DNA of 28,147 nt from positions 1 through 28,147 of the IMG/VR virus record IMGVR_UViG_3300025280_000124; one strand, given 5' to 3'. A program made the translations under genes and the position numbers. The stretch's first letter is position 1; every line of letters begins with the position of its first letter. Origin of the DNA: a virus. The notes under the pieces are model-generated. The model searched no databases and was not told where the DNA came from. It saw nothing but the letters and a program-made list of their open reading frames with translations. This document shows, in pieces, positions 3,063-28,147 of this stretch.

Positions 3063-3373
3063 GTAGGATTTCATTTACTCAGCTGTCAACCGGATCACCG
3101 GCAACTGACCAGGTACAGGGTTACATTGCAACGGCCCTGAATCCGCTTTTTCAGCTGCCTTTTGCTTCTGGCAACCGTGTGCAGGACCAGGAGATAACAA
3201 CTGCAGATACAGTTGTGGATCATGGACTTGAGCAAGCACCAGAGGGGTGGATTATTTTAAAGCAGAATGCAGCCCAGGTAATATATGAATCAGCAACAGT
3301 AAATGACTTTCCAGAAACTACAGTCATCCTGAAAGCAGGAGGAACTGTAACAGCAGATTTATTTTTTTTCTAA
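3059..3373 (+). CDS. Small virion/tail-associated protein
   Basis: This encodes 104 residues and overlaps the previous gene by four bases (ATGA), so it is probably translationally coupled. It begins MSRISFTQLSTGSPATDQV and contains DHGLEQAPEGWIILKQNA, a pattern (hydrophobic NHGL/DHGL, then G-W/Y-I/L) I recall from small conserved phage structural proteins encoded near fibre genes. It ends in DLFFF, encoded by a T8 run. It is probably a small beta-sandwich virion protein. The exact function is unknown. Confidence 0.65.
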   Translation: MSRISFTQLSTGSPATDQVQGYIATALNPLFQLPFASGNRVQDQEITTADTVVDHGLEQAPEGWIILKQNAAQVIYESATVNDFPETTVILKAGGTVTADLFFF

Positions 3374-3382
3374 AAAAATACT

Positions 3383-4642
3383 ATGGCAACAGCAGGGACA
3401 AACATCACATCACTGGCAAAACCGGCAGTTGGAGTAACAGTAGGTCCAACGTGGGCTACTGACCTCAACACAAGTATTGATGCAGTTGACAATCACGATC
3501 ACAGCACTAATAAAGGAGTGAGAATAACACCAGCTGGATTTAATATTAATGCAGACCTGGAGTTTAACGAAAACAGTGCAACAGAATTAAAAAATGTCAT
3601 TTTTGACAGCAGCGTTACAGCTGCCACAACAAGTTATTCACTTTACCAGGCAAGCGGAAATTTATATTGGCGGGATGGCAGTGGAACCGCAATACAAATT
3701 ACATTGTCCGGTTCTGTTAATTCGGGAGCAGGTTCCATATCGGGGATGACCGGAACTGATGCAGGAGCATCATATGCAGATGGTTCCAAGACATTTAATT
3801 TCTTCACGGACAGTGGCAATGGAGACTATGGAAAAATGGCTCATGCAGACTTGCTGTTGTTCAAATACACAAATAATAATTCCACTGATACAGATTATGT
3901 AACTATTGCAGCCAATGCAAACGTAAGTGGTGCATCTGGAACAATATATGTACCATCAGAAAACGGTACTTTTCTTACTACTGCCACATCCTATGCAACA
4001 GCTGCAATCAATATTGCAACTTCTGCATCCAACTATCCAATCAATCTCAAACCACATGGAACTGGTCATGTTGTGATTGGTAATGGAGGTGCAACCGGTA
4101 AGCTCACTTCCAATGGTGCGTATGATCTTATCCTGGACACAAACTCAGGTAGTTCAAGTTCTAGCATTGCCATTGTAGATGCAGCAAATGGAGATATAAA
4201 ATTTATTCCAAATGGTACTGGAAAAATTCTGGTAGGAAGTGGAAGTGCAGCTGGTGTAGTAACTTCCAGTGGTGCGCACGACATAACCGTAAGTACAAAC
4301 AGTGGGACCAACAGCTCATATATCACCATTACAGACGGTGCAAATGGAAACATTAACCTGGTTAATAATGGTACTGGTGAGGTTGTAATCGGCAGCGGAT
4401 CTGCTTCAGGTAAGATTACAACTTCAGGTGCGCATGATCTTGTGCTGGACACCAATGCAGGTTCTTCAAGTTCAAGCATAACAATCACAGATGCTGCCAA
4501 TGGTGACATTACCCTTGCTTGCAATGGAAGTGGGGATATTGAGTGCAGCAGTGATGTTAAAACATCAACAAATAAAAAGATTTATTCAAAGGGAAACTGT
4601 GTTCAGACAAGTTTCCATTCGTCATTAGTTTTTGGATATTAA
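3383..4642 (+). CDS. Tail fibre/appendage-like protein with tandem repeats
   Basis: This encodes 419 residues: a repetitive, Gly/Ser/Thr/Asn-rich, beta-structured protein. The N-terminus (MATAGTNITSLAKPAVGVTV) may attach to the virion. Residues about 53-230 have alternating beta character. From residue about 233 there are three tandem copies of a 52-residue unit with the pattern G-x-G-x-A-x-G, T-S-x-G-A-H-D, D-T-N-x-G-S-S-S-S and D-A-A-N-G-D-I. A short C-terminal tip follows (SKGNCVQTSFHSSLVFGY). This architecture fits a trimeric fibre or spike that reaches for the host surface. No enzymatic motif is visible. The receptor is unknown. Confidence 0.7.
   Translation: MATAGTNITSLAKPAVGVTVGPTWATDLNTSIDAVDNHDHSTNKGVRITPAGFNINADLEFNENSATELKNVIFDSSVTAATTSYSLYQASGNLYWRDGSGTAIQITLSGSVNSGAGSISGMTGTDAGASYADGSKTFNFFTDSGNGDYGKMAHADLLLFKYTNNNSTDTDYVTIAANANVSGASGTIYVPSENGTFLTTATSYATAAINIATSASNYPINLKPHGTGHVVIGNGGATGKLTSNGAYDLILDTNSGSSSSSIAIVDAANGDIKFIPNGTGKILVGSGSAAGVVTSSGAHDITVSTNSGTNSSYITITDGANGNINLVNNGTGEVVIGSGSASGKITTSGAHDLVLDTNAGSSSSSITITDAANGDITLACNGSGDIECSSDVKTSTNKKIYSKGNCVQTSFHSSLVFGY
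4079..4546 (+). repeat. Three tandem 156-bp coding repeats in the fibre gene
   Basis: The unit begins at 4079, 4235 and 4391, exactly 156 bp (52 codons) apart. The DNA copies differ at many positions while the protein pattern is conserved, so the repeats are not recent. The consistent period suggests one structural turn or module of the fibre per unit. Confidence 0.85.
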
Positions 4643-4680
4643 ACGATTGATATTATTAACAATTTTGTAGGAGATCGAAA

Positions 4681-5067
4681 ATGGCAATACCCACAGCAAG
4701 TGGAACGGAAATTTTAACAAGTGTATGGTTAGAGGATGTAGATGATACAGAACAATTAGCGATTACTGGCGTTGAGAATCATATATATACTGTACTTGGA
4801 TTCACGATTTGTGAGTCAAGCAGTGCCACAAGAGAAATAAGTGTTTATCTGTATGGGAGAGATTCAGGTGAAAGTGCTGCAAATAATCAATATATAGCAC
4901 TTTTGAGAGATTATTCAATGAAATCAAAGTCAACTTTCTCTTGGAATGATAGGTTCTCTTTTCATGGGTTTGGAAGTAATGGTGGAGCACAAAGTTTACG
5001 TTTTCAAGGAAGTGCTTCTTCAGCATTTGATATACAAGTAACTTATGTTGATCAAAACTGGACTTAA
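4681..5067 (+). CDS. Small fibre-associated beta-rich protein, unknown
   Basis: This encodes 128 residues, with a good ribosome site (AGGAG) before ATG. It starts MAIPTASGTEILTSVWLEDV and has many alternating hydrophobic/polar stretches such as REISVYLYGRD and FDIQVTYVDQNWT, suggesting a beta sandwich. It has no signal peptide or membrane segment. It lies between a repeat-containing fibre and another fibre-like small protein, so it may be a fibre tip, adaptor or virion decoration. I do not recognise a family. Its base composition is somewhat richer in A and T than its neighbours, which would fit a swapped host-range module. Confidence 0.6.
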   Translation: MAIPTASGTEILTSVWLEDVDDTEQLAITGVENHIYTVLGFTICESSSATREISVYLYGRDSGESAANNQYIALLRDYSMKSKSTFSWNDRFSFHGFGSNGGAQSLRFQGSASSAFDIQVTYVDQNWT

Positions 5068-5078
5068 GGAGTTAGCAT

Positions 5079-5552
5079 ATGACAGGAATAATTAATTCGG
5101 CAGGATCTAGGTCTGGTGTCATCAGCACACATGAACTGGATTATGAAGAAGGTTTTCACACTGTGACTATTGCAACATCGTCAAGTGGCACAGTAGCTAT
5201 TGATGCGAGTTCCGATCAATTATCTTATACTAAAATTGGCAGATTAGTTACGGTAACTGGGGGTTTTATTGTTGCTGCTACAGGAACAAGCTCACCAGTA
5301 GGTTATTTCAAAATTTCAATGCCATTCGCAACTGCAAATGAAACGGAATCATCAAGTCGAGCGTGTGGTTCTATCATTGTAGGGGATGGTGCAAGTGCTG
5401 ACAGTTCAGAGTACGGTGCAGTCGGTTATCAAAACGAAGCTTGGTGTCGAGTTTATTTATGTGATCAGACGGGACTGGGAGCCGATTCAGCACAACAATT
5501 AGCGAGTGGTAGTGTTCATATTTTTTTAACTTTTAGCTATTTCACAGTATAA
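5079..5552 (+). CDS. Putative tail fibre/receptor-binding C-terminal module
   Basis: This encodes 157 residues, with ribosome site AAGGAG before ATG. It begins MTGIINSAGSRSGVISTHELDYEEGFHTVTI. The N-terminal GIINSAGSRSGVI pattern followed by DYEEG and later YTKIGRLVTVTGGFIV is one I recall from short tail fibre tips in marine and freshwater phages, where it forms a beta-rich receptor-binding end. There is no catalytic motif. The protein is much shorter than a normal fibre, so it may be a separate subunit attached to the fibre encoded just upstream. Function is inferred from pattern and position. Confidence 0.6.
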   Translation: MTGIINSAGSRSGVISTHELDYEEGFHTVTIATSSSGTVAIDASSDQLSYTKIGRLVTVTGGFIVAATGTSSPVGYFKISMPFATANETESSSRACGSIIVGDGASADSSEYGAVGYQNEAWCRVYLCDQTGLGADSAQQLASGSVHIFLTFSYFTV

Positions 5553-5558
5553 ATAAAC

Positions 5559-5774
5559 ATGGCATTGACATTAGATAGAATAGAAGTAGTCACCGATTAC
5601 AAACATCTCCAAATTAGAGAGATTACAGATACAGGTGGATACCATCGGAGAGTTATAGAATGTAATCAGACTCTTGCAGATGATGAACACCAAGAGATAA
5701 AGGACAAAGCAGAAGAGTTATGGACTGATGAAGTTAAGACTGCATGGACAACTTTTCAGGCAGAACAAGAATAG
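5559..5774 (+). CDS. Small hypothetical protein after fibre genes
   Basis: This encodes 71 residues, starting MALTLDRIEVVTDYKHLQIREI six bases after the previous stop. The first half looks beta-stranded; the second half is helical and acidic (DDEHQEIKDKAEELWTDEV) and ends QAEQE. Small proteins with this arrangement are common next to phage fibre genes, possibly as fibre chaperones, but no function is established from the sequence alone. Confidence 0.6.
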   Translation: MALTLDRIEVVTDYKHLQIREITDTGGYHRRVIECNQTLADDEHQEIKDKAEELWTDEVKTAWTTFQAEQE

Positions 5775-17515: not shown

Positions 17516-17566
17516 ATGTCTGTACAAATGTCTGTACAATAAGGGGTGTCTGTACGTGTCTGTACA
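17516..17566 (+). repeat. Left arm-type repeats of attP (four copies)
   Basis: Four copies of ATGTCTGTACA or a one- to two-base variant lie at 17516-17526, 17528-17538, 17546-17556 and 17556-17566, all in the same orientation, between the endolysin stop and the tRNA-like core. Multiple short direct repeats flanking an attachment core are the usual arm-type binding sites of a tyrosine integrase. Two more copies lie on the other side of the core. Confidence 0.75.
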
Positions 17567-17610
17567 ATGTTTTATGGGTTAAGTCACTGATATTGTTAGA
17601 AGGTGCGGGA

Positions 17611-17655
17611 TTCATAACCCAGAGGGCGGGAGTTCAAATCTCCCCCCTGCTACCA
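17611..17655 (+). other. attP core: 3' half of a CAT-anticodon tRNA
   Basis: The sequence reads as a tRNA from the anticodon loop to the 3' end: loop TTCATAA with anticodon CAT (17613-17615), the T arm GGGAG-TTCAAAT-CTCCC (17628-17644), acceptor strand CCCTGCT (17645-17651), discriminator A and encoded CCA (17653-17655). There is no matching D arm or 5' acceptor strand (AGCAGGG) upstream, so this is not a working tRNA gene. Tyrosine integrases commonly recombine in the anticodon loop, and the phage copy restores the 3' half of the host gene on insertion. The host target is a Met or a lysidine-type Ile tRNA (CAT). Confidence 0.85.
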
Positions 17656-17700
17656 GTAGTAGCAAGGGATTTGGAGTTTGAGGCTTTTTAGAAAAGGGCA

Positions 17701-17722
17701 ATGTCTGTACAATGTCTGTACA
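17701..17722 (+). repeat. Right arm-type repeats of attP (two copies)
   Basis: Two adjacent copies of ATGTCTGTACA (17701-17711 and 17712-17722) end two bases before the integrase stop codon. With the four copies on the other side they bracket the tRNA-derived core. Confidence 0.75.
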
Positions 17723-17724
17723 AA

Positions 17725-19017
17725 TTAACCATTTCCGTAAAGCACCTCATTAAGAACAGCTGTTGATTTCCTGGTTTGTTTCGGACACAAATGGGAGTAT
17801 CTTTCCAGGGATTGAAGAGACTCATGCCCACCATGTGCTTTCATGGTCCACTCATCCACACCATTTTGTGCAAGGTATGAAAGACAGGTGTGGCGAAAAT
17901 CATGCCAGTGAAACGATTCTGAGAACGATACAGAACCTTCTGCTTTTGCTTTTTCAGTTGCACGTTTTACTGCAGTCCTAAATGCGGTCCGTGGATTCTT
18001 TGGAAAGATAAGTTTGCTGGTGGATTCCAGTTTTCTTTCCAGTAGCATCATTCGTAATTTAGGCAAATTCTCAATATCCAAAACTCTACCCTTAGAACCA
18101 TTCTTTAATCCATTTCTAAGCTGGTTTTTTTCATGGATTAGTTTAGTCTTACCCTTGACAATTTCTTTTCCACTAAAGACCGATCTGGCAAGAACCTTAT
18201 TGAATAGAATTACGTTTTGGTCCTTGTCAAAACAATCCCAGGTCAACCCCTGCATTTCAGACCACCGGCATCCAGCTGCAAGTAAGAAATCACAAACATC
18301 TTCCAGGTCATCTGAGGTGGATAGTTTGATTTGCTCTTTAAGTCTTTTCAGCTCATCTGGTGAAAGATAACGGTTGCGCTCATTATCCAGATCCATTGCT
18401 TCAACATCTTTTGATACATCATTAGTTACCCAGGCAGGCCGAACTCTAAATTTTTTGTTTTTGCCTGCTCCAAATCGAAACGCTGACTTTAAACATTGAA
18501 CACGGTTATTAATTGATGATGCAGCCAATTCTTTATTAATCAGCTTATCTTTAACATCCTCAATATGGTCTGCAGTAATTTCGTTCAATGTAAGATGACC
18601 GATTTCCGGTTCCCAAATTTCACGCAAATCCTTCTCATAGCGTTCAGAGTTTTTTAATGATGGCAGCACCGTATCAACATACTTATTAATGAGTTGTGCC
18701 ACGGTACGTTCACCAGGCTTCACTATAACTGCTTTCCCATCTTCCTTATTATCCAACTCTGCAATCTTTTCATTGCGCTTTCCGTGGATTTTCCCAAACT
18801 GGTCATTGTCTGGCAGATCACTGACCAGGCACAAAAATGGGCGCAACGGTCTTCCAATACTTTGCGGAATTATTGCACGCACCTGGACACGATTTGTAGG
18901 CAGCTTCGGTATGTCTTTTACATTGTATTTCCTGGTATCAACTGGCAGGAGCATAAAATCACCACCCAGTGCTTTATTGCCAGGGAATTTTTTTAAGTCT
19001 TTTAGATTAATACTCAT
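17725..19017 (-). CDS. int: Tyrosine recombinase integrase
   Basis: This catalyses site-specific insertion and excision of the phage at the tRNA site. From the start at 19017 it has 430 residues: an N-terminal arm-binding part, a SAM-like core-binding domain (about 100-195, TVAQLINKYVDTVLPSLKN) and a catalytic domain with Arg251 (GCRWSE), His372-x-x-Arg375 (HDFRH), His398 (GGHES) and the nucleophile Tyr407 (LERYSHL). I chose 19017 because GGAGAG lies just before it; an in-frame ATG at 19056 would add 13 residues. The start overlaps the end of the upstream gene. The stop is two bases from the attP arm repeats, so the gene and its site are joined as in most phages. Confidence 0.95.
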   Translation of the reverse strand: MSINLKDLKKFPGNKALGGDFMLLPVDTRKYNVKDIPKLPTNRVQVRAIIPQSIGRPLRPFLCLVSDLPDNDQFGKIHGKRNEKIAELDNKEDGKAVIVKPGERTVAQLINKYVDTVLPSLKNSERYEKDLREIWEPEIGHLTLNEITADHIEDVKDKLINKELAASSINNRVQCLKSAFRFGAGKNKKFRVRPAWVTNDVSKDVEAMDLDNERNRYLSPDELKRLKEQIKLSTSDDLEDVCDFLLAAGCRWSEMQGLTWDCFDKDQNVILFNKVLARSVFSGKEIVKGKTKLIHEKNQLRNGLKNGSKGRVLDIENLPKLRMMLLERKLESTSKLIFPKNPRTAFRTAVKRATEKAKAEGSVSFSESFHWHDFRHTCLSYLAQNGVDEWTMKAHGGHESLQSLERYSHLCPKQTRKSTAVLNEVLYGNG

Positions 19018-19466: not shown

Positions 19467-19824
19467 GTGTCCTGCCTTCCGATTGCTGGTTTAATTTTTC
19501 TAGCCGGTTTACATAGTATTCCAGCTTAGATATTAAATCCAGAGCATCATCCAATTTCGCCTGAACTGTTTCCAATGTGGCAAGGGAGTTTCCATCTCCT
19601 TTGCTGGTCCACATTCCCGCCTGTCCCTTTACTAACCAGTTCAAATTCATGCCTGCTTCTGCAAATCCCTTGAGCAGTGTTGCAGACACACCCTTCTTTT
19701 GGTTAGTAATTACTGATGCAAGATAGTTGGGTGTAACCCCAATCAGTCTTGCCATCTTTGAGGAGTTTCCACCAAGATCTTCAATGGCTTCCGTGATCCT
19801 CTTTTTTATTAATTCATCTTTCAT
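19441..19824 (-). CDS. CI-like phage repressor (HTH, no peptidase domain)
   Basis: This encodes 127 residues: an N-terminal helix-turn-helix of the Cro/CI (XRE) type (about 18-45, NSSKMARLIGVTPNYLASVI), followed by LKGFAEAGMNLNWLVKGQAGMW, a pattern common in phage repressors with an NW-L-G-G-M/P-W loop. A C-terminal coiled coil (about 80-115, LETVQAKLDDALDLISKLEY) probably dimerises it. It lacks the S24 autocleavage domain of lambda CI, so induction would not rely on RecA-stimulated self-cleavage. Divergent to the Cro-like gene across a control region with operator-like palindromes. It heads the minus-strand lysogeny operon ending in integrase. Confidence 0.85.
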   Translation of the reverse strand: MKDELIKKRITEAIEDLGGNSSKMARLIGVTPNYLASVITNQKKGVSATLLKGFAEAGMNLNWLVKGQAGMWTSKGDGNSLATLETVQAKLDDALDLISKLEYYVNRLEKLNQQSEGRTHEIESTIA

Positions 19825-19853
19825 AATTATTTTAAAGAAAAATTAAAAAAGTG

Positions 19854-19880
19854 TTGACAACCCATTACCACGGTGATAAT
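19854..19880 (+). promoter_or_regulatory. Candidate early rightward promoter
   Basis: TTGACA (19854-19859) and GATAAT (19875-19880) are separated by 15 bases, which is short; TAATTT at 19878 is an alternative -10 at spacing 18. The -35 box lies inside the palindrome GTTGACAAC. It points toward the Cro-like gene. Confidence 0.45.
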
Positions 19881-19929
19881 TTTGTGTCTCATGGATGTGC
19901 TTAATGCCTTGTTACAACCATGAGTGTAT

Positions 19930-19958
19930 ATTATCTGATACTTTGTTGCAACTGTCAA
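19930..19958 (-). promoter_or_regulatory. Repressor-side sigma-70 promoter
   Basis: On the minus strand, TTGACA (19953-19958) is separated by exactly 17 bases from GATAAT (19930-19935). It would drive the repressor and the integrase operon. The palindrome GTTGCAAC fills the spacer next to the -35 box. Confidence 0.7.
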
Positions 19959-20023
19959 GAAAAAAGATTACACATTAAATCAGTATGATAACAGCAACCC
20001 ATTGATATAGAAGGGAAAGAAAA

Positions 20024-20248
20024 ATGAATAATAGTGGAAAAAAGACAAATTTAAAATGGATGATGAAAGATTTAGGAATCAGTATGCAAAGTGTAGCAGA
20101 TAATGCTGGTGTTTCAAAAGCAGATGTTTCCAGGGTCATGAATGATGAAATGGAGGAGATTGTAATAAAAACTGTTACCAGACTCTGTGCTGATAAAAAA
20201 CGTGCTACAGAAAAGAGACACAATAAAATCCTGGCAGAATGTAACTGA
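20024..20248 (+). CDS. Cro-like HTH regulator with a LacI-type recognition helix
   Basis: This encodes 74 residues, with GAAGGGAAAG before ATG. The helix-turn-helix at about 21-40 reads MQSVADNAGVSKADVSRVMN, which is close to the N-terminal helix-turn-helix of LacI-family regulators (VA-x-x-AGVS-x-x-x-VSRV-N), but there is no sugar-binding domain. It is the first gene of the rightward early block and divergent to the repressor, so it is likely the Cro-type switch protein. The next gene starts at its last base (TGATGG). Confidence 0.75.
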   Translation: MNNSGKKTNLKWMMKDLGISMQSVADNAGVSKADVSRVMNDEMEEIVIKTVTRLCADKKRATEKRHNKILAECN

Positions 20249-20436
20249 TGGATGCTGAAGATAAAAAACTACTGAGGGAACATTCTCAGAAGATGGCAGA
20301 TCTGCAGAATGATTTCCAGATGTTTTACAAAATTGTAAAACAGATCCTACCTGAAATTGAACACACCAAAACATTGACCAGGTTGGAAAAACGTATGAAT
20401 GATTCCAGGAAAAAAATGAAAGTTGACCTGGTATGA
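20248..20436 (+). CDS. Small helical protein, unknown
   Basis: This encodes 62 residues starting MDAEDKKLLREHSQKMADLQ, almost entirely charged helix with possible coiled coil and ending RKKMKVDLV. Its start overlaps the stop of the Cro-like gene and its stop overlaps the next start, so it is part of a coupled early operon. No family recognised. Confidence 0.6.
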   Translation: MDAEDKKLLREHSQKMADLQNDFQMFYKIVKQILPEIEHTKTLTRLEKRMNDSRKKMKVDLV

Positions 20437-20579
20437 AACGCAAAAGCAGAAACTGGAAGTGCAGCCACCAGTGTAAATACCACGAACTATGTGACAGGTA
20501 TGATGGGCGTGGTGGGAATCACAAAGCATACTGTCTGCCAGACTTCCTGAGATATGGATTTGTGGAGAAGGGGAAGTGA
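20433..20579 (+). CDS. Small Cys-rich protein
   Basis: This frame encodes 48 residues starting MKRKSRNWKCSHQCKYHELC. Four Cys (C10, C14, C20 and C34) and several His suggest a single metal-binding site, either a small zinc finger or an Fe-S site. It overlaps the previous stop (ATGA) and the following GTG start by four bases, a gene-dense arrangement that supports it being real. Function unknown. Confidence 0.55.
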   Translation: MKRKSRNWKCSHQCKYHELCDRYDGRGGNHKAYCLPDFLRYGFVEKGK

Positions 20580-21181
20580 GAATATTAAATTTATATTCAG
20601 GGTTAGGCGGGAATAGATCAGCTTGGGGTTATTATGAAGTTACTGCAGTTGAGTCTAACCCAAAAATTGCTGCAGTTTATCAAGACAGGTTCCCTCAAGA
20701 TAATGTGGTTGTTGGTGATGCCCATGAGTATTTGTTAAAGAATTTCAACGATTATGATTTCATTTGGTCATCCCCCCCCTGTCAGACACACAGCAGTTTC
20801 AGGCATAATCTTTGTGTCAGATTTAGAGGTACAGAAGCAGTTTACCCAGACATGAAATTGTATCAAGAAATTTTATTGCTTCAGCACAATTCAAAAGCAT
20901 TGTTTATTGTTGAGAATGTGACTCCATATTATAAGCCTTTAATAAGTCCAAATGGTAAAGCAGGCAGGCACTTAATATGGTCAAATTTTATTGATGGTGA
21001 AATTGATATTTCAAAAAAGCCAAAATTAAGAAATGCACAAATTCCTGAGTTACAAAAATATCACAATATTGATTTATCAAAATATGATTTGAAAGGATTG
21101 AATAAAAGGCAGTTATTAAGAAATTGTGTAGATGCAGAGATTGGGGGAAAAATATTACGAAAAATTTATGACAGAAACTGA
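20576..21181 (+). CDS. DNA cytosine methyltransferase (short, C5 type)
   Basis: This encodes 201 residues from GTG (overlapping the previous stop, GTGA). Motif I is LNLYSGLGGNR (about 4-14), the SAM-binding loop; motif IV is SSPPCQTHS with catalytic Cys69; motif VI is VENV (112-115). The C-terminal NCVDAEIGGKILRKI resembles motif X. These are the marks of DNA (cytosine-5-) methyltransferases, though the protein is much shorter than a normal one (300 or more residues), with a reduced target-recognition part. With no restriction enzyme beside it, it probably protects phage DNA from host restriction. Its bases are A/T-rich compared with neighbours, which would fit recent acquisition. Confidence 0.8.
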   Translation: MRILNLYSGLGGNRSAWGYYEVTAVESNPKIAAVYQDRFPQDNVVVGDAHEYLLKNFNDYDFIWSSPPCQTHSSFRHNLCVRFRGTEAVYPDMKLYQEILLLQHNSKALFIVENVTPYYKPLISPNGKAGRHLIWSNFIDGEIDISKKPKLRNAQIPELQKYHNIDLSKYDLKGLNKRQLLRNCVDAEIGGKILRKIYDRN

Positions 21182-21317
21182 AGCACAGATCCAGAAAGCA
21201 ATTATGCAGTGGGGGCAGTATAAAAAGGTACTGATGCACCGTATTAAAAATAATTTTAAGTTACTGATATTATTATTAAATAAAACATCAAAACCCCTAA
21301 CTTACTGTAATCATTAA
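21168..21317 (+). pseudogene. Truncated 5' copy of the VRR-NUC nuclease gene
   Basis: An ATG at 21168 opens TETEAQIQKAIMQWGQYKK then VLMHRI, matching the N-terminus of the VRR-NUC gene downstream (ETEAQIQKAILQWGAYKR then ILMHRI). After about 76 bp the similarity ends and the frame continues into unrelated hydrophobic sequence (NNFKLLILLLNK). About 15 of 76 bases differ, many at third positions, so the copy is not a recent duplication. It overlaps the methyltransferase end, which is where the nuclease gene would have begun before the cassette arrived. Confidence 0.75.
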
Positions 21318-21326
21318 ATATTTAGC

Positions 21327-21355
21327 TTGACACTGATATTCGACTTTGATATAAT
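21327..21355 (+). promoter_or_regulatory. Consensus sigma-70 promoter of an accessory cassette
   Basis: TTGACA (21327-21332) and TATAAT (21350-21355) are both perfect consensus hexamers with the optimal 17-base spacer. It lies 75 bases before the 113-residue gene at 21431, and so gives that gene expression independent of the early phage promoter, including in a lysogen. Confidence 0.85.
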
Positions 21356-21430
21356 AGATTTAGGATAATCAGAAATGTATCTGGTTATTCCATTAGAATG
21401 TTCTTTGCCAATCTAATAAAGGAGAAAGAG

Positions 21431-21772
21431 ATGAAAAAAGGTTTTTGTGTCGGATATGAATGGGTGCTAGAAGTTCTTACGATTGATGATAATGGAGATG
21501 TTTTGGAAAGAGAACCGTTTCAATCTAAAGAAATTTCGATGCCAGAGAATCCAGGCGAAGTCTATTTTGAAGAAGATGGAAAACAAAAAATGACAGACGA
21601 ACTCTGTTTAGTCAGGGATGTTTGGGATACTGAGTTCGGTGATCTTGAAGACAGAACATGGGCTTATGTTGAAACAAAAGATGAAAACGGTAAATGGATT
21701 CTGCCGGAACATTTTGACAATGGGGTTAAAGTGCCTAAACGATTCCATAATGAATTATTCAAAATACAATGA
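21431..21772 (+). CDS. Acidic accessory (moron-like) protein, unknown
   Basis: This encodes 113 residues. I chose ATG 21431 because AAAGGAGAAAGAG precedes it; an in-frame ATG at 21398 would add 11 residues. It begins MKKGFCVGYEWVLEVLTIDD and is acidic, with a beta-rich first half and aromatic patches (TWAYVETKDENGKW). No signal peptide or membrane segment. It has its own consensus promoter and sits between two copies of the VRR-NUC start, which are signs of an inserted cassette. Such genes are often expressed from prophages and affect the host or rival phages, but nothing here shows the role. I do not recognise it. Confidence 0.7.
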   Translation: MKKGFCVGYEWVLEVLTIDDNGDVLEREPFQSKEISMPENPGEVYFEEDGKQKMTDELCLVRDVWDTEFGDLEDRTWAYVETKDENGKWILPEHFDNGVKVPKRFHNELFKIQ

Positions 21773-21776
21773 GAAG

Positions 21777-22151
21777 GTGAAAGAAACTGAAGCCCAAATA
21801 CAGAAAGCAATTCTGCAGTGGGGTGCATACAAACGCATACTGATGCACCGTATCAATGTGATAGGCACACCGCTGCATAAGAATGGCCTGACAGTTTACC
21901 GGCCCAGTACCAACCGTGGTATGGCAGACATACACGCCACTGTCCTGGTTGGTGATATTCCGGTATCAGTGTGGCTGGAAGTCAAAACAAAGAAGGGCAG
22001 GATCTCAGAGAACCAGAAAGCATTTAATGATGTTATTGCAGCTGCTGGTGGATTTTACTATGTGGTCAGGTCTATTGATGATGTGGAACTTGTCGTTGCA
22101 GAAGTCAGGCAGAAAACGTTTACAAAAATGAGTGCAGCAATACCGTTTTAA
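21777..22151 (+). CDS. VRR-NUC domain nuclease
   Basis: This encodes 124 residues from GTG 21777. The start matches the ATG of the partial copy upstream; ATG 21750 is an alternative that would overlap the previous gene. The VRR-NUC fold is a PD-(D/E)xK nuclease: NRGMADI (Asp51), WLEVKTKKGRIS (Glu68, Lys70), NQKAF (Gln80) and GGFYYVVRSIDDV are the conserved elements. Such stand-alone domains in phages cut branched or flap DNA and are usually placed in replication/recombination operons, as here. It precedes a RecE-like exonuclease. Confidence 0.85.
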   Translation: MKETEAQIQKAILQWGAYKRILMHRINVIGTPLHKNGLTVYRPSTNRGMADIHATVLVGDIPVSVWLEVKTKKGRISENQKAFNDVIAAAGGFYYVVRSIDDVELVVAEVRQKTFTKMSAAIPF

Positions 22152-22155
22152 ACAT

Positions 22156-22232
22156 TGGACAGTCTCAGGCGGGGCAGTGGAGGGAATATTCAGGTGTAAG
22201 GTGATTCTGGAGTATTCAGGCAGGACTGTCCA
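22156..22232 (+). promoter_or_regulatory. Long-range inverted repeat in the leader of the exonuclease gene
   Basis: TGGACAGTC (22156-22164) and GACTGTCCA (22224-22232) are perfect 9-bp complements separated by 59 bases. The loop holds two copies of TATTCAGG. It fills the gap between the nuclease stop and the exonuclease ribosome site, so it may be a structured leader or a weak terminator; there is no U tract. Confidence 0.45.
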
Positions 22233-22248
22233 TTAACTAGGAAGAGAA

Positions 22249-23073
22249 ATGATTAAAGAAAACCTAACCCTGGAGGATTACCACAAGCTGGAGCCAAAAT
22301 CTGCACACTTCTTAATGGATGTGATGGAGAAAAATTGCAGCAAGGCAGTGCGTAACCAGGAACATCCAAAGAAACCTACAAAGGCAATGCAGAATGGCAC
22401 GCTGATTCATACTGCAATTGAACTAAGGGGAAATTTGACCTGGGATATTGGAGATTATTATGTCCAGGAACCACCAGACATAAATAAGAGGACCAAAGCA
22501 GGGAAGCTGGAGCTGGAAGAGTTTCACAAATCCATTGGTGACAAAATAGTAATTACTGAGGATCAGTGGGACATGGCAGTGGGCTGCATGGAAGCAGCCT
22601 GGTCTGATATATATGCAAGACCATACCTGGAAGCAGCAAGGTTTGAACGCAGCGGGTTTACCAATATAAAGGGTGTGGATGTAAAGGCCAGACCAGACCT
22701 GGATTGCTATAAGAAACAGAGAACCCTGGTGGACATAAAGACCAGGCAGAAAGATAAGTCTGATGAACCATCTTGGACCAGGGATTGGTGGAACAGCAAG
22801 ACATATATACAGGCAGGTTTACAGCTGCTGGTTTGGGAGAAACTGAATATGCCCTGTGAGCATTATTATTATCTACTGGTGGAAACTGAAGATCCATACG
22901 ATACCAACCTGGTAGACCTGGGTGAAGAGCTAATGGAGATTAGCAAGGATAGAACAATTGAAGCATTGGAGAAATGGAAATCATGGATTGGCGCAGGCTC
23001 GCCAAAAGGTTATGGACAACCGCAAAAAATGCAAACAAAACCGTGGTACAGAAATCACGAACTCACCCTGTAA
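22249..23073 (+). CDS. RecE-like PD-(D/E)xK exonuclease
   Basis: This encodes 274 residues with a GGAAGAGAA ribosome site. The conserved elements of the RecE / exonuclease VIII-like (DUF3799-type) PD-(D/E)xK nucleases are present: NGTLIHTAIE (His54, Glu58), KARPDLD (Asp150), TLVDIKTR (Asp162, Lys164) and the QAGLQLLVWE helix (Gln188, Gln192). It probably digests one DNA strand to make recombinogenic ends for phage recombination. An ssDNA-binding-like gene lies shortly downstream, but no recognisable single-strand annealing protein (RecT/Beta) is in this window. The 3' end overlaps the zinc-finger gene by about 100 bases. Confidence 0.8.
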   Translation: MIKENLTLEDYHKLEPKSAHFLMDVMEKNCSKAVRNQEHPKKPTKAMQNGTLIHTAIELRGNLTWDIGDYYVQEPPDINKRTKAGKLELEEFHKSIGDKIVITEDQWDMAVGCMEAAWSDIYARPYLEAARFERSGFTNIKGVDVKARPDLDCYKKQRTLVDIKTRQKDKSDEPSWTRDWWNSKTYIQAGLQLLVWEKLNMPCEHYYYLLVETEDPYDTNLVDLGEELMEISKDRTIEALEKWKSWIGAGSPKGYGQPQKMQTKPWYRNHELTL

Positions 23074-23675
23074 GGCAGTGTCCATATTGTGGGAAGGATG
23101 TGGTTTCACGTGGATACCAGGTAAAGCGGTATTGCAACAACATCTGCTACCAGAGATTCCAGCGTGCAAGGACAAAAAAGCGCAGAGCAGAAAGGCTCTG
23201 CCTGGAGTGCGATAAGGTTTTTACGCCAAAAAGAGACAACCATTTTAGATGCTCAGATCACTGCAGGAAAACTTTTCAAGCAAGGTATTTAAAGCAGAAC
23301 CGGATCAGATACAAAAGCACCAGGGAGAGACACCCCTGCAAGTTTTGCGGGCAGCTGTTTGTACCATTGCATTACCTTACAATATTTTGTTCTCCACCCT
23401 GTAAACGTGCGCATGAAGCAACTATCAAAGTTAAACCAAAATTAACAATAGAACCAACCCAAAGAGAAATTACAGAAGATGACCTGTCCACCAGTAATCA
23501 TGCAGCTGCAATTGCAGAGTTCAAAGCAGCTGGTGGGAAGGTAAAAGTGTATCCTACGCTGCCAAGTCCAAAGATTCAAAATACTGGAGCAAGCAAAGGT
23601 GCAGAGTGGTCCATCAAATCTAATATTGATGACCTGGATGATGAATACAATGATGTATTCAATATGAAGAACTAA
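22974..23675 (+). CDS. Protein with three C2C2 zinc fingers
   Basis: This encodes 233 residues. It contains three clear C-x2-C...C-x3-C modules: Cys36/39/54/58, Cys76/79/93/97 and Cys122/125/139/143, each followed by basic helices (YQRFQRARTKKRRAERL, KTFQARYLKQNR). These look like treble-clef or MYM/FCS-like zinc fingers, which bind DNA or RNA. The C-terminal part (about 155-233) is acidic and probably flexible. ATG 22974 has a GGAG four bases upstream; ATG 22983 and GTG 23043 are alternatives, and the last would cut the long overlap with the exonuclease. No exact family is recognised. Its position suggests DNA replication or recombination. Confidence 0.75.
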   Translation: MEIMDWRRLAKRLWTTAKNANKTVVQKSRTHPVRQCPYCGKDVVSRGYQVKRYCNNICYQRFQRARTKKRRAERLCLECDKVFTPKRDNHFRCSDHCRKTFQARYLKQNRIRYKSTRERHPCKFCGQLFVPLHYLTIFCSPPCKRAHEATIKVKPKLTIEPTQREITEDDLSTSNHAAAIAEFKAAGGKVKVYPTLPSPKIQNTGASKGAEWSIKSNIDDLDDEYNDVFNMKN

Positions 23676-23708
23676 CCTAAAAGATGAAATAACTAGAAGG
23701 AGAATGAT

Positions 23709-24396
23709 ATGAGTTTTGATCCAATACCGGAACCAAGTATGTCATCAGATTATCTGAAGATAAATCCAGATGAGAAGCACCGTATCCGCATTATGGACAT
23801 TTATCCAGGGATGGGAGTCCTGGGGTGATGATAACAAACCGCATAGAATGCCGTATATACTAAACCAACCATGTCCAAAAGAGTTGAGGGATCTGGACAG
23901 GGATGGCAAACCAAAGCTGTTTTGGATGTTCACTGTCTGGCACGTTGGTGAGGAAAAGCCAATGGTGTTTGAAGTAACACAAAGCACAATTAAAACTCCA
24001 ATCCTGGCATATGCCAATAATCCAGCCTGGGGTGATCCATCGCATTATGTCCTGGAGATTGGCAGGACCGGTTCTGGATTAGAAACAGAATATACAGTGA
24101 TTGCAGAACCACCATCCGAACCACCACCTAAAGCTGTTACTGATGCAATGAAGGATGCAATGATTGATTTGCGTGTAGTGTTTGATGATGGTAATCCCTT
24201 TGGTGCATTGGCAACCAATGACCAGGAAAACATTAGGCGTTTGCGTGAGCAGGGTGAGCCGATTCCTATGGGTGCAGAAGTAAGTAGTGTAAGTAGTGTA
24301 GGCAGCGTTGCCAGGGATGCAGTCGAAACACTTAAAGCAGCAAAGGATAAAGCTGAAGGACTTGCACCTGAAATGGAAGGTAAAGTACCGTACTAA
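23709..24396 (+). CDS. ssDNA-binding-like protein split by a +1 frameshift
   Basis: Two frames together make one protein. From ATG 23709 (GAAGGAGAATGAT before it), the frame reads MSFDPIPEPSMSSDYLKINP then DEKHRIRIMD and stops at 23826. The second frame carries on from TTT at 23800 as FIQGWESWGDDNKPHRMPYI, VWHVGEEKPMVFEVTQSTIK, NNPAWGDPSHYVLEI and so on to 24396. Skipping one base, near A23799, joins RIRIMD to FIQGWESWG, which fits a family of phage ssDNA-binding-like proteins I recall (I-R-I...GW-x-x-W...NKP...EITQ-x-TI...WGDP). The C-terminus (about 150-208) is flexible and acidic. Whether the base is an error, a mutation or a programmed shift is unresolved. The name is tentative. Confidence 0.6.
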
Positions 24397-24399
24397 AAA

Positions 24400-24422
24400 C
24401 TGTATATACAGGGGCTATACAG
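24400..24422 (+). repeat. Palindrome and hairpin after the SSB-like gene
   Basis: CTGTATATACAG (24400-24411) is a perfect 12-bp palindrome, and its left half also pairs with TATACAG at 24416-24422. It lies four bases after the SSB-like stop and could be an operator or a weak hairpin. No U tract follows. Confidence 0.5.
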
Positions 24423-24444
24423 GAAATGAAAATTGAAAGGAAAC

Positions 24445-25290
24445 ATGGATGTTGACAGGCAAAGTTTTATCATTTATAAGAACTTTTATGAGCCGATTAA
24501 GCACCTGAATAATACAGATTTGGGTAAGCTGTTCAGGGCAATATTTGAGTATAATTTATCTGTAGATGGTACTGAAAAAGTAAATGGGTATGTGGTCCCA
24601 CCAGAGGTGAAAATACCTTTTGAGTTCTTCAAAAATCAGTTCAACCTGGATGATGCCAAGTGGATGAAAAGAGTTAAAGCCAGCAGGGAGAATGGATTGA
24701 AGGGTGGAAGACCACCACAACCTAGTGAACCTACTGGGTTAGTTGGGTTAGAAACGGAACCTGAAAAAGGCGATACTGTTACTGTTACTGTTACTGATAC
24801 TGTAACTGGTACTGTTACTGAAAATGAAACTGAAAAGGATTTAAAAGAAATACAAAAGAAAAGTTTTGATGTGTGGTGGTCAGATTACAGGGGAAAAAGT
24901 TGGAGGGGAACTGGTGGAGTGAAAAGTACAGCAGCTAAAAATTATGCTGCCTGTCTCAAGAAATATTCTCCAGAGCAAATACAAAAGGCTACTGATAATT
25001 ATCTGCAGCATTGTAGAACATCCAGATCATTCCACAAAGATCCTGAGAGATTTGTTGATCCGGTTAAGAAGATGGTGGAACAGTGGCTGGACTTTACACC
25101 ACCACCAAAACAGTCTGCTGAACCAGACAGGTCTGCTCCCATAGAAAAATCATGGAAGAACCAGATAGATACCGTTAGGCGTTTACTGCACGGTAAGAAT
25201 AAACAGCAGGCACAGGAGGAGTGGGGGAAGATACCAACAGCCTGGAAGGATAACTTGAAGATCCAACAGATGTTTGCAGAGAAAAACTAA
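24445..25290 (+). CDS. DUF6291-like phage protein, possible replication role
   Basis: This encodes 281 residues from ATG 24445 (GAAAGGAAAC ahead). The N-terminus, MDVDRQSFIIYKNFYEPIKH with LFRAIFEYNL, is typical of DUF6291 proteins found in replication modules of many phages. A conserved WMKRVKASRENGLKGGRPPQ follows and then a low-complexity TVTVTVTDTVTGTVTE stretch. The C-terminal half, with WWSDYRGK, KSTAAKNYAACLKKY and HKDPERFVD, resembles the C-terminal section of phage replication initiator-like proteins that bind or recruit a helicase loader. It contains no ATPase motif. Function is inferred from family and context. Confidence 0.65.
   Translation: MDVDRQSFIIYKNFYEPIKHLNNTDLGKLFRAIFEYNLSVDGTEKVNGYVVPPEVKIPFEFFKNQFNLDDAKWMKRVKASRENGLKGGRPPQPSEPTGLVGLETEPEKGDTVTVTVTDTVTGTVTENETEKDLKEIQKKSFDVWWSDYRGKSWRGTGGVKSTAAKNYAACLKKYSPEQIQKATDNYLQHCRTSRSFHKDPERFVDPVKKMVEQWLDFTPPPKQSAEPDRSAPIEKSWKNQIDTVRRLLHGKNKQQAQEEWGKIPTAWKDNLKIQQMFAEKN
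24775..24820 (+). repeat. Degenerate ACTGTT hexamer repeat
   Basis: About seven hexamers close to ACTGTT run in frame inside the DUF6291-like gene, encoding Thr-Val pairs (TVTVTVTDTVTGTVT). Such tracts can expand or shrink in six-base steps without breaking the frame and form a flexible linker between the two domains. Confidence 0.8.
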
Positions 25291-25369
25291 AAGTGACATT
25301 CAAGTTCAGTTTCTCAAATTTCGGTGATAGTGTTAAATTAACCCCAAAACCCTTTGATGCGAGGACAAG

Positions 25370-25702
25370 ATGAATCCAGTGCAATTCAGGAATTCTACCG
25401 CTTATATCGTTGGTGGAGACATTGAAGCAGATGTGACAGGAACAACAATTGATGCAGGACAATTCCGGAAAGTCTGCATGGTTGCAGTAAATACCGGCAC
25501 TAACTCACCAGCTGGTAATATTTATATCCAACATTCAAACGACGACAGTACCTGGGTAAATGGTACAACAGCTGCCGTTGCTGGTGCTGAAACTAATCTC
25601 CTGGAAGATGATCTGTATGCAAGATATACCAGGTTCTTTTACGATGTTACCAGTGGTGGTGCAACTGCAACCATTGCTGTGACCTACACGCTCAAGAGCT
25701 AG
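25370..25702 (+). CDS. Small beta-rich protein, possible virion decoration
   Basis: This encodes 110 residues with GCGAGGACAAG before ATG. It begins MNPVQFRNSTAYIVGGDIEA and reads like a small beta sandwich (IYIQHSNDDSTWVNGT, ARYTRFFYDVTSGGATATIA). No signal peptide or membrane segment. It resembles small virion proteins in composition, yet it lies in front of the terminase genes and not in the structural block. It may be a late virion gene at the left edge of the packaging region. No family recognised. Confidence 0.65.
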   Translation: MNPVQFRNSTAYIVGGDIEADVTGTTIDAGQFRKVCMVAVNTGTNSPAGNIYIQHSNDDSTWVNGTTAAVAGAETNLLEDDLYARYTRFFYDVTSGGATATIAVTYTLKS

Positions 25703-25706
25703 ACCT

Positions 25707-25895
25707 ATGCCAAAGATTAAAAAAGGTAAAAGCAAAGGGGTAGGCGCAAACGTAACGAAAGCTGAAAGAAAGATTGCTAATGCTTTCCCAGGTTCAAGTG
25801 TGAGAATAACTGATATGTTTGGTGCAAACTATACTCCGTACGAAAAGAAACTGTTTAAGAAAACCAAAAGACCACTCAGGAATGGTCCGAGGTAG
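25707..25895 (+). CDS. Small basic protein, unknown
   Basis: This encodes 62 residues, starting MPKIKKGKSKGVGANVTKAE four bases after the previous stop. It is strongly basic, with FPGSSVRITDMFGANYTPYE in the middle and KKTKRPLRNGPR at the end. It probably binds nucleic acid or is packaged. Unrecognised, but the tight spacing and the similar basic neighbours support it. Confidence 0.6.
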   Translation: MPKIKKGKSKGVGANVTKAERKIANAFPGSSVRITDMFGANYTPYEKKLFKKTKRPLRNGPR

Positions 25896-25898
25896 CTG

Positions 25899-26012
25899 AT
25901 GCCAAAAGTAGTGGAGAAGTTAGCAAAGAAACTCAGGAAGAAGGGTAAAAGCAAATCCTCAAGCTATGCGATTGCTACAGCTGCATTGAAGAAACGCAAG
26001 AGGAAGAAGTGA
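25899..26012 (+). CDS. Very small basic protein, partly in a tandem repeat
   Basis: A frame of 37 codons encodes MPKVVEKLAKKLRKKGKSKS, SSYAIATAALKKRKRKK, nearly half Lys/Arg. It resembles the small basic proteins often found near phage packaging genes. The last seven codons and the stop lie in the first unit of a 23-bp tandem repeat. Confidence 0.5.
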   Translation: MPKVVEKLAKKLRKKGKSKSSSYAIATAALKKRKRKK

Positions 26013-26045
26013 AGAAACGCAAGAGGAAGAAGTGAAGAAACGCAA
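25988..26045 (+). repeat. 23-bp tandem duplication (2.5 copies)
   Basis: Units lie at 25988-26010 and 26011-26033, identical in sequence, followed by a 12-base partial copy (26034-26045). The repeat carries both a Lys/Arg-rich coding end with stop codon and the ribosome site plus GTG start of the HNH gene. It therefore looks like a recent duplication that preserved both. Confidence 0.9.
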
Positions 26046-26256
26046 CTACCGCAAAGAGTATGACACATACCACAAGAAACCAAAGCAGCGTAAGAATAAC
26101 AATGCCAGGCACAGGGCAAGATACTCAATGAAGCTGAAGCCTGGTGATAAGCGTGAGGTGGATCACAAAAGACCACTGAGCAAAGGTGGAAGCAACTCAC
26201 GCAAGAATCTGCGCCTGGTCAGTCGAACCACAAACAGAAGGAAAGCTGCAAAGTGA
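26032..26256 (+). CDS. HNH endonuclease (packaging-associated)
   Basis: This encodes 74 residues from GTG 26032, with AGGAAGAA before it from the tandem repeat. The HNH motif is visible: EVDHKRPLSKGGSNSRKNLR (Asp44-His45, Asn59) followed by LVSRTTNRRKAAK, giving a short HNH core with a basic N-terminus. Small HNH nucleases next to terS/terL are common in tailed phages and are needed, with the terminase, for specific DNA cleavage in some of them. Its stop overlaps the next gene's GTG start (GTGA). It could be a stand-alone mobile nuclease, but location favours packaging. Confidence 0.8.
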   Translation: MKKRNYRKEYDTYHKKPKQRKNNNARHRARYSMKLKPGDKREVDHKRPLSKGGSNSRKNLRLVSRTTNRRKAAK

Positions 26257-26657
26257 AAGCATTTGAAGTGACTGAGGAAGTATTAGCTGAAGCTGAAGAG
26301 TGTGGTGCGTTAGGCTTAAACCTGGAACAGACTGCACTGTGCCTTGGTGTGAATCCCAGTACGTTGTATCGCAATAAGGTTAAATCTGGGGCTTTGCAAT
26401 CTGCTCTTACACGCGGGCAGGCGCGTGGTATTAGGAATATGACCGGATGCTTGAGGGACCAGGCAGAGTCTGGAAACACTCACGCTACGATGTTTTACCT
26501 GAAGAACCGTGCAGCGGATCAGTGGGCTAATGATCTCCAGAATGTGGCTAAAATACAGGTTAATCTCTCTAGAATTAGCGATTCTGAGCTGCTTAGTGAA
26601 CTCAGGGATGATCCTGCACTACTCAAAGTTGTAAACGCACAACAAATAGAAGAATAA
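26253..26657 (+). CDS. Terminase small subunit-like protein
   Basis: This encodes 134 residues from GTG (GTGA overlap with the HNH stop). An N-terminal helix-turn-helix (about 20-45, LNLEQTALCLGVNPSTLYRN) is followed by a helical section with GNTHATMFYLKNRAADQWAN, which is the characteristic end of phage TerS-like proteins. It recognises the packaging site in viral DNA and stimulates TerL. It lies directly after the HNH gene and two genes before TerL. The C-terminus (SELLSELRDDPALLKVV) is typical of these too. Confidence 0.75.
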   Translation: MKAFEVTEEVLAEAEECGALGLNLEQTALCLGVNPSTLYRNKVKSGALQSALTRGQARGIRNMTGCLRDQAESGNTHATMFYLKNRAADQWANDLQNVAKIQVNLSRISDSELLSELRDDPALLKVVNAQQIEE

Positions 26658-26680
26658 TGATAAATTTTATATGTGCGATA

Positions 26681-26717
26681 ATGTACGTTTAACGTACATA
26701 TGATGTTTATCAACATC
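26681..26717 (+). promoter_or_regulatory. Two adjacent perfect inverted repeats between terS and the GNAT gene
   Basis: ATGTACGTTTAACGTACAT (26681-26699) has 9-bp arms around a single central base. Next to it, GATGTT (26702-26707) pairs with AACATC (26712-26717) around four bases. They may be operators or a packaging/regulatory structure. No U tract follows, so a terminator is unlikely. Confidence 0.55.
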
Positions 26718-26741
26718 CATGAGTTGTGATATTACACAAAT

Positions 26742-26763
26742 GGTACAGACATTGTACAGACAT
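26742..26763 (-). repeat. Two distant copies of the attP arm repeat
   Basis: Read on the minus strand this is two adjacent ATGTCTGTAC(A/C) units (11 + 11 bp), the same array as the right attP arm at 17701-17722. It lies about 9 kb from attP, just in front of a GNAT-like gene. See the finding on shared sites. Confidence 0.8.
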
Positions 26764-26770
26764 TGGGGTT

Positions 26771-27295
26771 ATGACTGAGAAAAGTTCAACAATAACAAAG
26801 AGTTCACCTGCCAACCTCGGGATTGTTTATCCCACGGTCCGTAATACTGAAAGAATTGGTGTGCTTTTACGTAAGATTGAACCGGATGAGCGTGCGCTGC
26901 GCTTTGTGCTGGATTCCTGGTGCAAAACCGTTGCAGCAGAGCCTCCCTGGAATTTCAGCACCCCCCACCATACTCCACCCCTACCCCACCCCTTACTGAT
27001 TTATGAACACGACACACTCCTCAAAAAAATAATCCGCAATTCCACCATCACGCTTGGGTGTGATCCAGATGATCCCGATACGGTGTGGGGTTATATCTGC
27101 ACCGATGATAATTTGTTGCATTTTATCTATGTAAAGAGTGCATTCCGTGGATTTGGGATAGGCGGGTGTTTATTGAGGTCAGCAGACTTGCCTGGCAGCA
27201 ATGTTATCACTTCACACCGGACACAGAGTTTGTTTGTTGCATTCCCTGGAGTCCGTTTTTTATGGAACCCTTACAGGATGATTTATGGAACTTGA
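26771..27295 (+). CDS. GNAT acetyltransferase-like protein between terS and terL
   Basis: This encodes 174 residues from ATG 26771; an earlier in-frame start at 26726 would run through the repeats, so I prefer the later one. The C-terminal half shows a GNAT pattern: VWGYICTDDNLLHFIYVKSA and then FRGFGIGGCLLRS, which is the acetyl-CoA-binding motif A (R/Q-G-x-G-x-G/A). The central part has an unusual Pro/His-rich stretch (FSTPHHTPPLPHP) at about 73-88. Acetyltransferase-like genes within terminase loci are seen in some phages but their substrate is unknown. Its end overlaps the next gene by 11 bases. Confidence 0.65.
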   Translation: MTEKSSTITKSSPANLGIVYPTVRNTERIGVLLRKIEPDERALRFVLDSWCKTVAAEPPWNFSTPHHTPPLPHPLLIYEHDTLLKKIIRNSTITLGCDPDDPDTVWGYICTDDNLLHFIYVKSAFRGFGIGGCLLRSADLPGSNVITSHRTQSLFVAFPGVRFLWNPYRMIYGT

Positions 27296-27593
27296 GCGAG
27301 TACATTTACTGAGGATCTTGCAGATGCCAGGAGGCACTTCTGAGATACTTTTGCGTGGAGAGAAGAACGGCACTGATACTAAACTTTTCTACACAGAGGG
27401 AATGATTTGTGTGAAGCGCAATGTGCAGGGTGTGAGTCACACCAGGTTGGTTCCTTTAAACAACGTACAATCTATGGAAGAATATGGCGGGCAATCCACT
27501 AAAAAGGCAGCGCAGGGAAGCAGCAAACGATCTGAACTGGAACAGGGAAAAGCGTCTTCTGGTGGAAGAGGCCGTCCGAAGAAAGCGGGCTAG
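27285..27593 (+). CDS. Small protein with a C-terminal AT-hook-like motif
   Basis: This encodes 102 residues starting MELERVHLLRILQMPGGTSE. The first two-thirds look globular and beta-rich (FYTEGMICVKRNVQGVSHTR). The C-terminus is low in complexity and basic and ends GGRGRPKKAG, with an AT-hook core (RGRPKK) that binds the minor groove of A/T-rich DNA. It overlaps the GNAT gene by 11 bases and the terL gene by up to 110 bases, so the AT-hook tail is encoded in a different frame of the terL start. Confidence 0.6.
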   Translation: MELERVHLLRILQMPGGTSEILLRGEKNGTDTKLFYTEGMICVKRNVQGVSHTRLVPLNNVQSMEEYGGQSTKKAAQGSSKRSELEQGKASSGGRGRPKKAG

Positions 27594-28147
27594 GGACCAG
27601 GTACGCAACAAGCTGAAGGACTTATGCGGAGGTTTGGAAAATTCTCTGCATCCATTTCAGAAAGTATTTTTAGATTCCCCCAAAAAAAAGAAATTAGCGA
27701 GGTGTTCCAGGCGTGCAGGGAAAACGCATCTGGCTGCAGTGGGGTTAATTTCTGCAGCAGTGAATAATGACAATTTGCTGGTTCCATATATCACCCTGTC
27801 AATCAAGAATGCAAGGCGTATTGTCTGGACCACTTTGAGGGAGATTGAGAGACAGTTTGCTTTTGGAATGGAGTTCCTGGAGAACAGTTTAACGGTCCGG
27901 TTTCCCAATGGTTCTCAGATCATAATGGGAGGCTGCCAGGATGCAAATGAGATTGAGAAGTTCCGCGGACCTAAATACGCTTTAGCAGTAATTGATGAAG
28001 CACAGAGTATCAAGAGTTCCACTTTAGCCACTTTAATTGATGATATTTTAGAACCAGCAAGTTTGGACTTAGACGGTGCAATCTGGATGTTTGGAACACC
28101 AGCTGCAAGTGCTGCAGGATTTTACTATGACTGCGATAATTTAGAGA
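27484..28147 (+). CDS. Terminase large subunit, N-terminal part (cut by window end)
   Basis: The first 221 codons of the packaging ATPase-nuclease, open to the window edge. Walker A is SRRAGKTH (residues 75-82, after KKLARC), Walker B is LAVIDEAQS (Asp171, Glu172) and the coupling motif FGTPAAS follows at about 203. LHPFQKVFLDSP before the Walker A is typical of TerL proteins. I chose ATG 27484 (GGAA before it); GTG 27562 is a later in-frame option that would shorten the 110-base overlap with the upstream gene. The nuclease domain lies outside the window. Confidence 0.9.
   Translation, partial: MAGNPLKRQRREAANDLNWNREKRLLVEEAVRRKRARDQVRNKLKDLCGGLENSLHPFQKVFLDSPKKKKLARCSRRAGKTHLAAVGLISAAVNNDNLLVPYITLSIKNARRIVWTTLREIERQFAFGMEFLENSLTVRFPNGSQIIMGGCQDANEIEKFRGPKYALAVIDEAQSIKSSTLATLIDDILEPASLDLDGAIWMFGTPAASAAGFYYDCDNLE

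Follow-up and report, generated by a model that had tools for sequence, protein, structure and literature searches.

A promoter and a single accessory gene next to a truncated nuclease start in the early region of a temperate phage

Gene content of the early region

The window, a 28,147-base uncultured virus record analysed over its whole length, contains integrase, repressor, capsid and replication/recombination genes, and the phage is therefore a temperate tailed phage. Its rightward early genes begin with an HTH gene (20024–20248), a 62-codon gene, a 48-codon gene and a C5 methyltransferase gene, and continue with a nuclease stub, a promoter, a gene of 113 codons that we call ORF113 and an intact VRR-NUC nuclease gene (Table 1). 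On the 3′ side of the nuclease lie an exonuclease VIII-like gene, a zinc-finger/HNH-like gene and an SSB-like gene. No terminator was found on the plus strand from 19800 to 23100, and none was detected separating the nuclease from the exonuclease VIII-like gene.

Table 1. Features of the early region, in window coordinates
Feature	Position	Strand	Evidence
Cys-rich 48-codon ORF, last conserved backbone gene ahead of the variable slot	20433..20579	+	DNA-level alignment with relative L088
Compact C5-cytosine DNA methyltransferase, 201 aa	20576..21181	+	PF00145, E 3.5e-10; phrog_363, E 3.3e-15
Truncated nuclease start (copy 1), 26 nuclease-like and 23 unrelated codons	21168..21317	+	81% repeat of 21778–21856
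AT-rich intergenic DNA with promoter and leader	21248..21430	+	25% GC
Consensus sigma-70 promoter, TTGACA-17-TATAAT, extended −10 TG	21327..21355	+	12/12
Hairpin at predicted mRNA 5′ end	21363..21390	+	−11.5 kcal/mol, z −4.1
ORF113, acidic 113-aa protein, family phrog_15581	21431..21772	+	phrog_15581, E 4.4e-11
Intact VRR-NUC nuclease, first 26 codons = copy 2	21777..22151	+	PF08774, 27.0 bits
Exonuclease VIII-like PD-(D/E)XK protein, downstream of nuclease	22249..23073	+	phrog_412 exonuclease VIII, E 1.7e-32; DUF3799

The methyltransferase, whose start overlaps the 48-codon ORF, is identified as a C5 cytosine enzyme by its PF00145 match and by the SGLGG, PPCQ and ENV motifs, which it retains in an alignment with six relatives; it is 60–65% identical to many phage relatives. 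An eight-C run at 20772–20779 encodes the proline codons of the PPCQ catalytic motif, and slippage in this run would turn the methyltransferase off.

Between the stub and ORF113, the GC content of the DNA at 21248–21430 falls to 0.251, against 0.416 across the window. This DNA gave no convincing match among GenBank phages; a match of the AT-rich leader to a Vibrio phage (E 0.05) was taken as chance. The perfect consensus promoter that the initial annotation had placed between the two nuclease copies is present, with an extended −10, and is the sole 12/12 sigma-70 match in the window on either strand. The hairpin that follows it was equalled in stability by 0 of 200 shuffles, and the stability of the whole 84-nt leader when folded is not significant (z −1.3); a search of the locus for structured RNA in Rfam gave nothing above threshold. 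The sequence AAAGGAG stands ahead of the ORF113 ATG. A phage repressor operator was sought at the ORF113 promoter and not found, and no motif is common to this promoter and the repressor-side regulatory region (19821–20030). Because no phage operator motif is seen there, the promoter is predicted to be active in lysogens too. It should also read through into the nuclease and the recombination genes behind, a prediction made because no terminator was detected after ORF113.

Elsewhere in the window, within 1–655, the putative major capsid gene is interrupted by a group I intron at 391–601 (Rfam RF00028, 96.8 bits, E 4e-24). The 3′ part of the intron is repeated at 3–194 (73% over 199 nt), and this repeat seems to be the tail of another, related intron that the contig end truncates; no ORF is seen inside either of the two. 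Behind the integrase gene, within 17518–17726, lies a sequence resembling a tRNA 3′ half, at about 17604–17655, with CAT in the anticodon position, for which ARAGORN called no tRNA. Several TGTCTGTACA repeats surround it, and an inverted 28-nt copy of the repeat occurs at 26738–26765. Together these sequences are likely to be an attachment site with integrase arm sites.

Two copies of the nuclease start

The beginning of the nuclease gene occurs twice at this locus. Copy 1 (21169–21247) and copy 2 (21778–21856) align without gaps at 81% identity, in keeping with the value of about 80% first reported, and their self-match by BLASTN (83.8% over 80 columns, E = 1.5e-15) is far beyond chance. A nuclease protein search also recovers copy 1, at E about 1e-9. 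The homology runs from the start codon to codon 26. Copy 1 heads an ORF that begins with ATG at 21168, shares the final 14 bases of the methyltransferase gene, departs from the nuclease sequence after codon 26 and ends at a stop at 21317. The intact gene begins with GTG at 21777; its product exceeds the curated PF08774 cut-off for VRR_NUC (27.0 against 23.8 bits), matches the phrog_93 endonuclease (E 9e-12) and is 74% identical to that of the relative L002. Like other virus-type replication-repair nucleases, it keeps the predicted PD-(D/E)XK catalytic residues D51, E68 and K70, which were called as likely catalytic from an alignment of the window, L002, L003 and L004 and from the known PD-(D/E)XK motif. 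Copy 1, in contrast, comprises the N-terminal 26 codons only; its homology ends before these residues and it lacks every one of them.

The two copies differ at 16 positions in 78 nt, which change 12 codons, six silently and six not (start codon included), so that the description of the changes as mostly silent was overstated. Codons 2–26 hold five amino-acid changes, where random change would be expected to give 10.5 (P about 1.5e-4), and for this reason the comparison points to some past coding constraint during part of the divergence. Polarity was assigned by rooting with L002 and L088, the only two relatives close enough for a comparison over 78 nt. By this rooting, of the nine changes that could be polarised, eight are on copy 1, where they fall 4:2:2 by codon position with no third-position excess, and four of its six changed codons are replacements, which runs against the earlier argument from silent change. 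Because the polarised changes are concentrated on copy 1, spread over codon positions in this way and mostly replacements, copy 1 seems to be a decaying fragment that evolved without constraint, while copy 2 remained a gene. The longest exact run common to the two copies is 16 bp.

The slot in relatives and the ORF113 family

Nuclease relatives were gathered from IMG/VR, and 18 had readable upstream DNA, several of them near-identical, so that the independent number is smaller. A conserved small gene of 61–64 codons directly abuts or overlaps the nuclease in 14 of the 18 (L003, L004, L089–L099, L104). A different, larger C5 methyltransferase occupies the slot in three (L002, L088, L102), and the remaining one (L101) has neither. 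ORF113 or a second nuclease start was found at the slot in none of the 18, and ORF113 was absent throughout the 15 relatives' records that were searched whole; among GenBank phages there was no nuclease relative at E 1e-3. The initial annotation had proposed an accessory cassette at the nuclease start, to be checked by looking in relatives for an alternative gene there, a reading that would fail were the cassette always present and the first copy functional. It is borne out: the relatives carry nothing or another methyltransferase in a variable slot, and in none of them is that adverse situation seen.

Similarity of the window to L088 at the DNA level spans the repressor, 62-codon and 48-codon genes. 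It reaches the 3′ end of the Cys-rich 48-codon ORF, which L088 conserves at the same position, ends at 20563, just before the methyltransferase, where the methyltransferases of the two phages start, and resumes within the nuclease at 21786. Between L002 and L088, most of the methyltransferase sequence cannot be aligned, yet near-identity sets in some 30 bp ahead of the nuclease start. Their nuclease genes form a patchwork, with six silent differences in codons 2–7 (own numbering), none in the next 59 bases and then blocks of differences. Judged from these alignments, the nuclease start is a module boundary and recombination boundary in these phages, because the L002 and L088 methyltransferases differ and the sequences agree from about 30 bp before it. 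In L088 the slot methyltransferase (3820–4870) seems split over two frames of 78 and 257 codons, perhaps by a frameshift or a sequencing error. A further record, L108, is 99% identical over its positions 1–5573 to window 22498–28071, begins just right of the locus and evidently comes from nearly the same phage.

The acidic gene reported between the copies is there, with a product of pI 4.46. It had been called unknown, but it is no orphan: residues 7–113 match positions 5–113 of the 114-position phrog_15581 profile (E 4.4e-11), as did 11 of 11 aligned homologues, and the family motifs YEW, DR-WAY, LPE-F and VPKRFH are all carried. Identity to the nearest members is about 40%. Aeromonas phages hold relatives at about 31–47% identity, and further members occur in Pseudomonas phages 16Q and Cygsa01 and Xanthomonas phage Rb1. 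The protein alone gave no match in viral contigs; profiles built from its homologues found 13 and then 26 IMG/VR loci. Searches for ORF113 in Pfam, NCBIfam, padloc, plasmids and bacterial genome contigs gave no matches.

Members of phrog_15581 sit singly in unrelated neighbourhoods of diverse phages: at the left end in Aeromonas phages; adjoining an AAA_24 ATPase and a DUF669 protein (L114/L117); upstream of an SU10-type capsid gene (L127); and, in Rb1 (L146, 1–5000), between genes annotated as a defence-against-restriction A N-terminal protein and an internal head protein. Such wandering between settings is typical of accessory genes. One member is in phiA8-29, of the Ackermannviridae, and another in Ahp2, a phage reported not to lysogenise (PMC8001559). 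Comparison across the 26 family members found a promoter of this kind only in the window; candidates in L117 and L118/L119 are weaker, though above chance. The proposal that every family member comes with a promoter of its own was therefore rejected. Because such promoters are rare among the 26, we take this one to have arrived with the window's cassette and not with the family. ORF113 thus resembles phrog_15581 over residues 7–113 and in its motifs, and differs in a consensus promoter specific to the window's phage.

An AlphaFold2 model of ORF113 is confident (pLDDT 88.8, pTM 0.77) and consists of beta strands and a C-terminal helix. PDB profile and fold searches returned chance matches only, with no solved counterpart, and the hits in a viral fold library were all phage proteins that are uncharacterised or unnamed.

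Origin of the cassette and role of ORF113

Morons, as described by Juhala et al. 2000 (cited in PMC7067206 and PMC2147016), are phage accessory genes that carry a promoter of their own; often, not always, they have a terminator as well (PMC2147016). The window's cassette resembles them in being a single gene with its own predicted promoter, unique in the window, in a variable slot where all 18 relatives lack both ORF113 and copy 1, and in its lower GC content (36.5% in ORF113 and 25% in the leader, where the nuclease has 45% and the gene after it 44%); codon usage is not distinctive. It differs in lying inside an early operon on the same strand, in leaving a scar of the neighbouring gene and in having no plus-strand terminator behind ORF113, for which reason we call it moron-like only. 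As at the boundaries of other mosaic phage modules, differing methyltransferase modules adjoin a conserved nuclease start in L002, L088 and L102; unlike those, the exchange in the window left a stub and a whole gene. The event is an ordinary phage mosaic exchange, of a known kind, that brought in a moron-like gene.

We consider it probable that the promoter and ORF113 form a moron-like cassette, acquired by illegitimate recombination that left the nuclease stub. The cassette (21248–21776), a strong promoter plus one gene, would have entered the early operon of a temperate phage whose starting order was 48-codon gene, methyltransferase, nuclease. That phage would have been joined, near nuclease codon 26, to DNA carrying the promoter, ORF113 and an intact nuclease. 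The product would have kept copy 2 as its one working nuclease and copy 1 as a dead stub of 26 codons, which would have decayed since. These joining steps we infer from the anatomy of the locus and from its relatives; no candidate donor, in which ORF113 would immediately precede a VRR-NUC gene, was found. ORF113, a small, acidic and mostly beta-strand protein, would be expressed early and at a high level from its own promoter, in lysogens too, and this promoter would transcribe the nuclease and recombination genes behind it as well.

Whether the two flanks came from two related phages, as first proposed, can be weighed from the copies themselves. At codons 6–8, copy 1 reads GCA CAG ATC, as in L002, and copy 2 reads GCC CAA ATA, as in L088. 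Because these silent haplotypes match different relatives, a meeting of two circulating gene versions is favoured, and the recombination boundary at the nuclease start is in its favour too. A two-phage origin is plausible, with a modest edge over duplication; the haplotypes comprise three sites, and duplication within one lineage is possible. In the latter account, which we hold to be somewhat unlikely, the cassette arrived with a duplicate of about 79 bp of the nuclease start, whether by template switching or through target duplication, after which copy 1 decayed; no second phage would be involved. Both copies have A11, G16, Y18 and H24, where L002 and L088 have S, A, A and Y, and because of these shared residues the copies are each other's nearest relatives, as duplication would have it; the concentration of changes on copy 1, even over codon positions, is also what a dead duplicate would show. 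The silent sites of codons 6–8, however, would require repeated parallel changes, and the DNA to the left of each copy differs, so that simple insertion is insufficient. Recombination within the shared gene start, the mechanism originally suggested for trapping the cassette, would by itself give a single hybrid gene; a non-homologous join is therefore needed whichever the origin. An assembly artefact joining two phages in the metagenome is extremely improbable: the record is of an uncultured virus and the locus is spanned by no other, near-identical one, but an exact common run of at most 16 bp is too short for a usual assembly join, and both flanks match one relative, L088, in order. Nor do we give much credence to a working copy 1, whether it would act as a short peptide or offer a target for recombination by which the cassette could exit. 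Its start overlaps the methyltransferase stop, making coupled translation possible, and recombination with copy 2 would restore the methyltransferase–nuclease order; against this very improbable account, copy 1 has none of the catalytic core, replacements predominate among its changes, no exact run common to the two copies exceeds 16 bp and the relatives do not have it.

Other readings concern what the cassette does. It might serve mainly as a promoter that drives the nuclease, exonuclease VIII-like and SSB-like genes independently of the repressor, with ORF113 a passenger; the same-strand consensus promoter, the 4-nt gap between ORF113 and the nuclease and the lack of a terminator between them fit this. 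We regard it as quite doubtful, since ORF113 retains a good ribosome site and the family motifs, phrog_15581 is kept in unrelated phages that lack such a promoter, and constitutive nuclease expression in a lysogen is expected to be costly. That the prophage expresses ORF113 for lysogenic conversion or superinfection exclusion also seems unlikely, if less so. Integrase and repressor genes are present, the promoter has no recognisable operator and accessory loci are often the expressed prophage genes (PMC7067206), but the occurrence of family members in phiA8-29 and in Ahp2, reported not to lysogenise (PMC8001559), does not tie the family's role to lysogeny. A more elaborate scheme, in which the nuclease start is a docking point for repeated methyltransferase and accessory-gene swaps, ORF113 an undescribed anti-defence protein beside a self-methylating enzyme and the stub a swap record that could allow the cassette to exit, strikes us as improbable.

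For the moron-like cassette that we favour, neither a functional annotation nor a padloc match nor a solved fold speaks for a host-directed role of ORF113. Small early accessory proteins in varied phages, including Ahp2 with its reported lack of lysogeny, usually act on the host, and because of this our best guess is that ORF113 acts in early host takeover or against a defence.

The locus offers a clean case of accessory gene pick-up, in which the stub of a neighbouring gene marks the join and the slot in relatives is empty or otherwise filled. The phrog_15581 proteins form a small family common to Aeromonas, Pseudomonas and Xanthomonas phages; found here beside a DNA methyltransferase and under a very strong predicted promoter, the family is a candidate for host-takeover and anti-defence screens.
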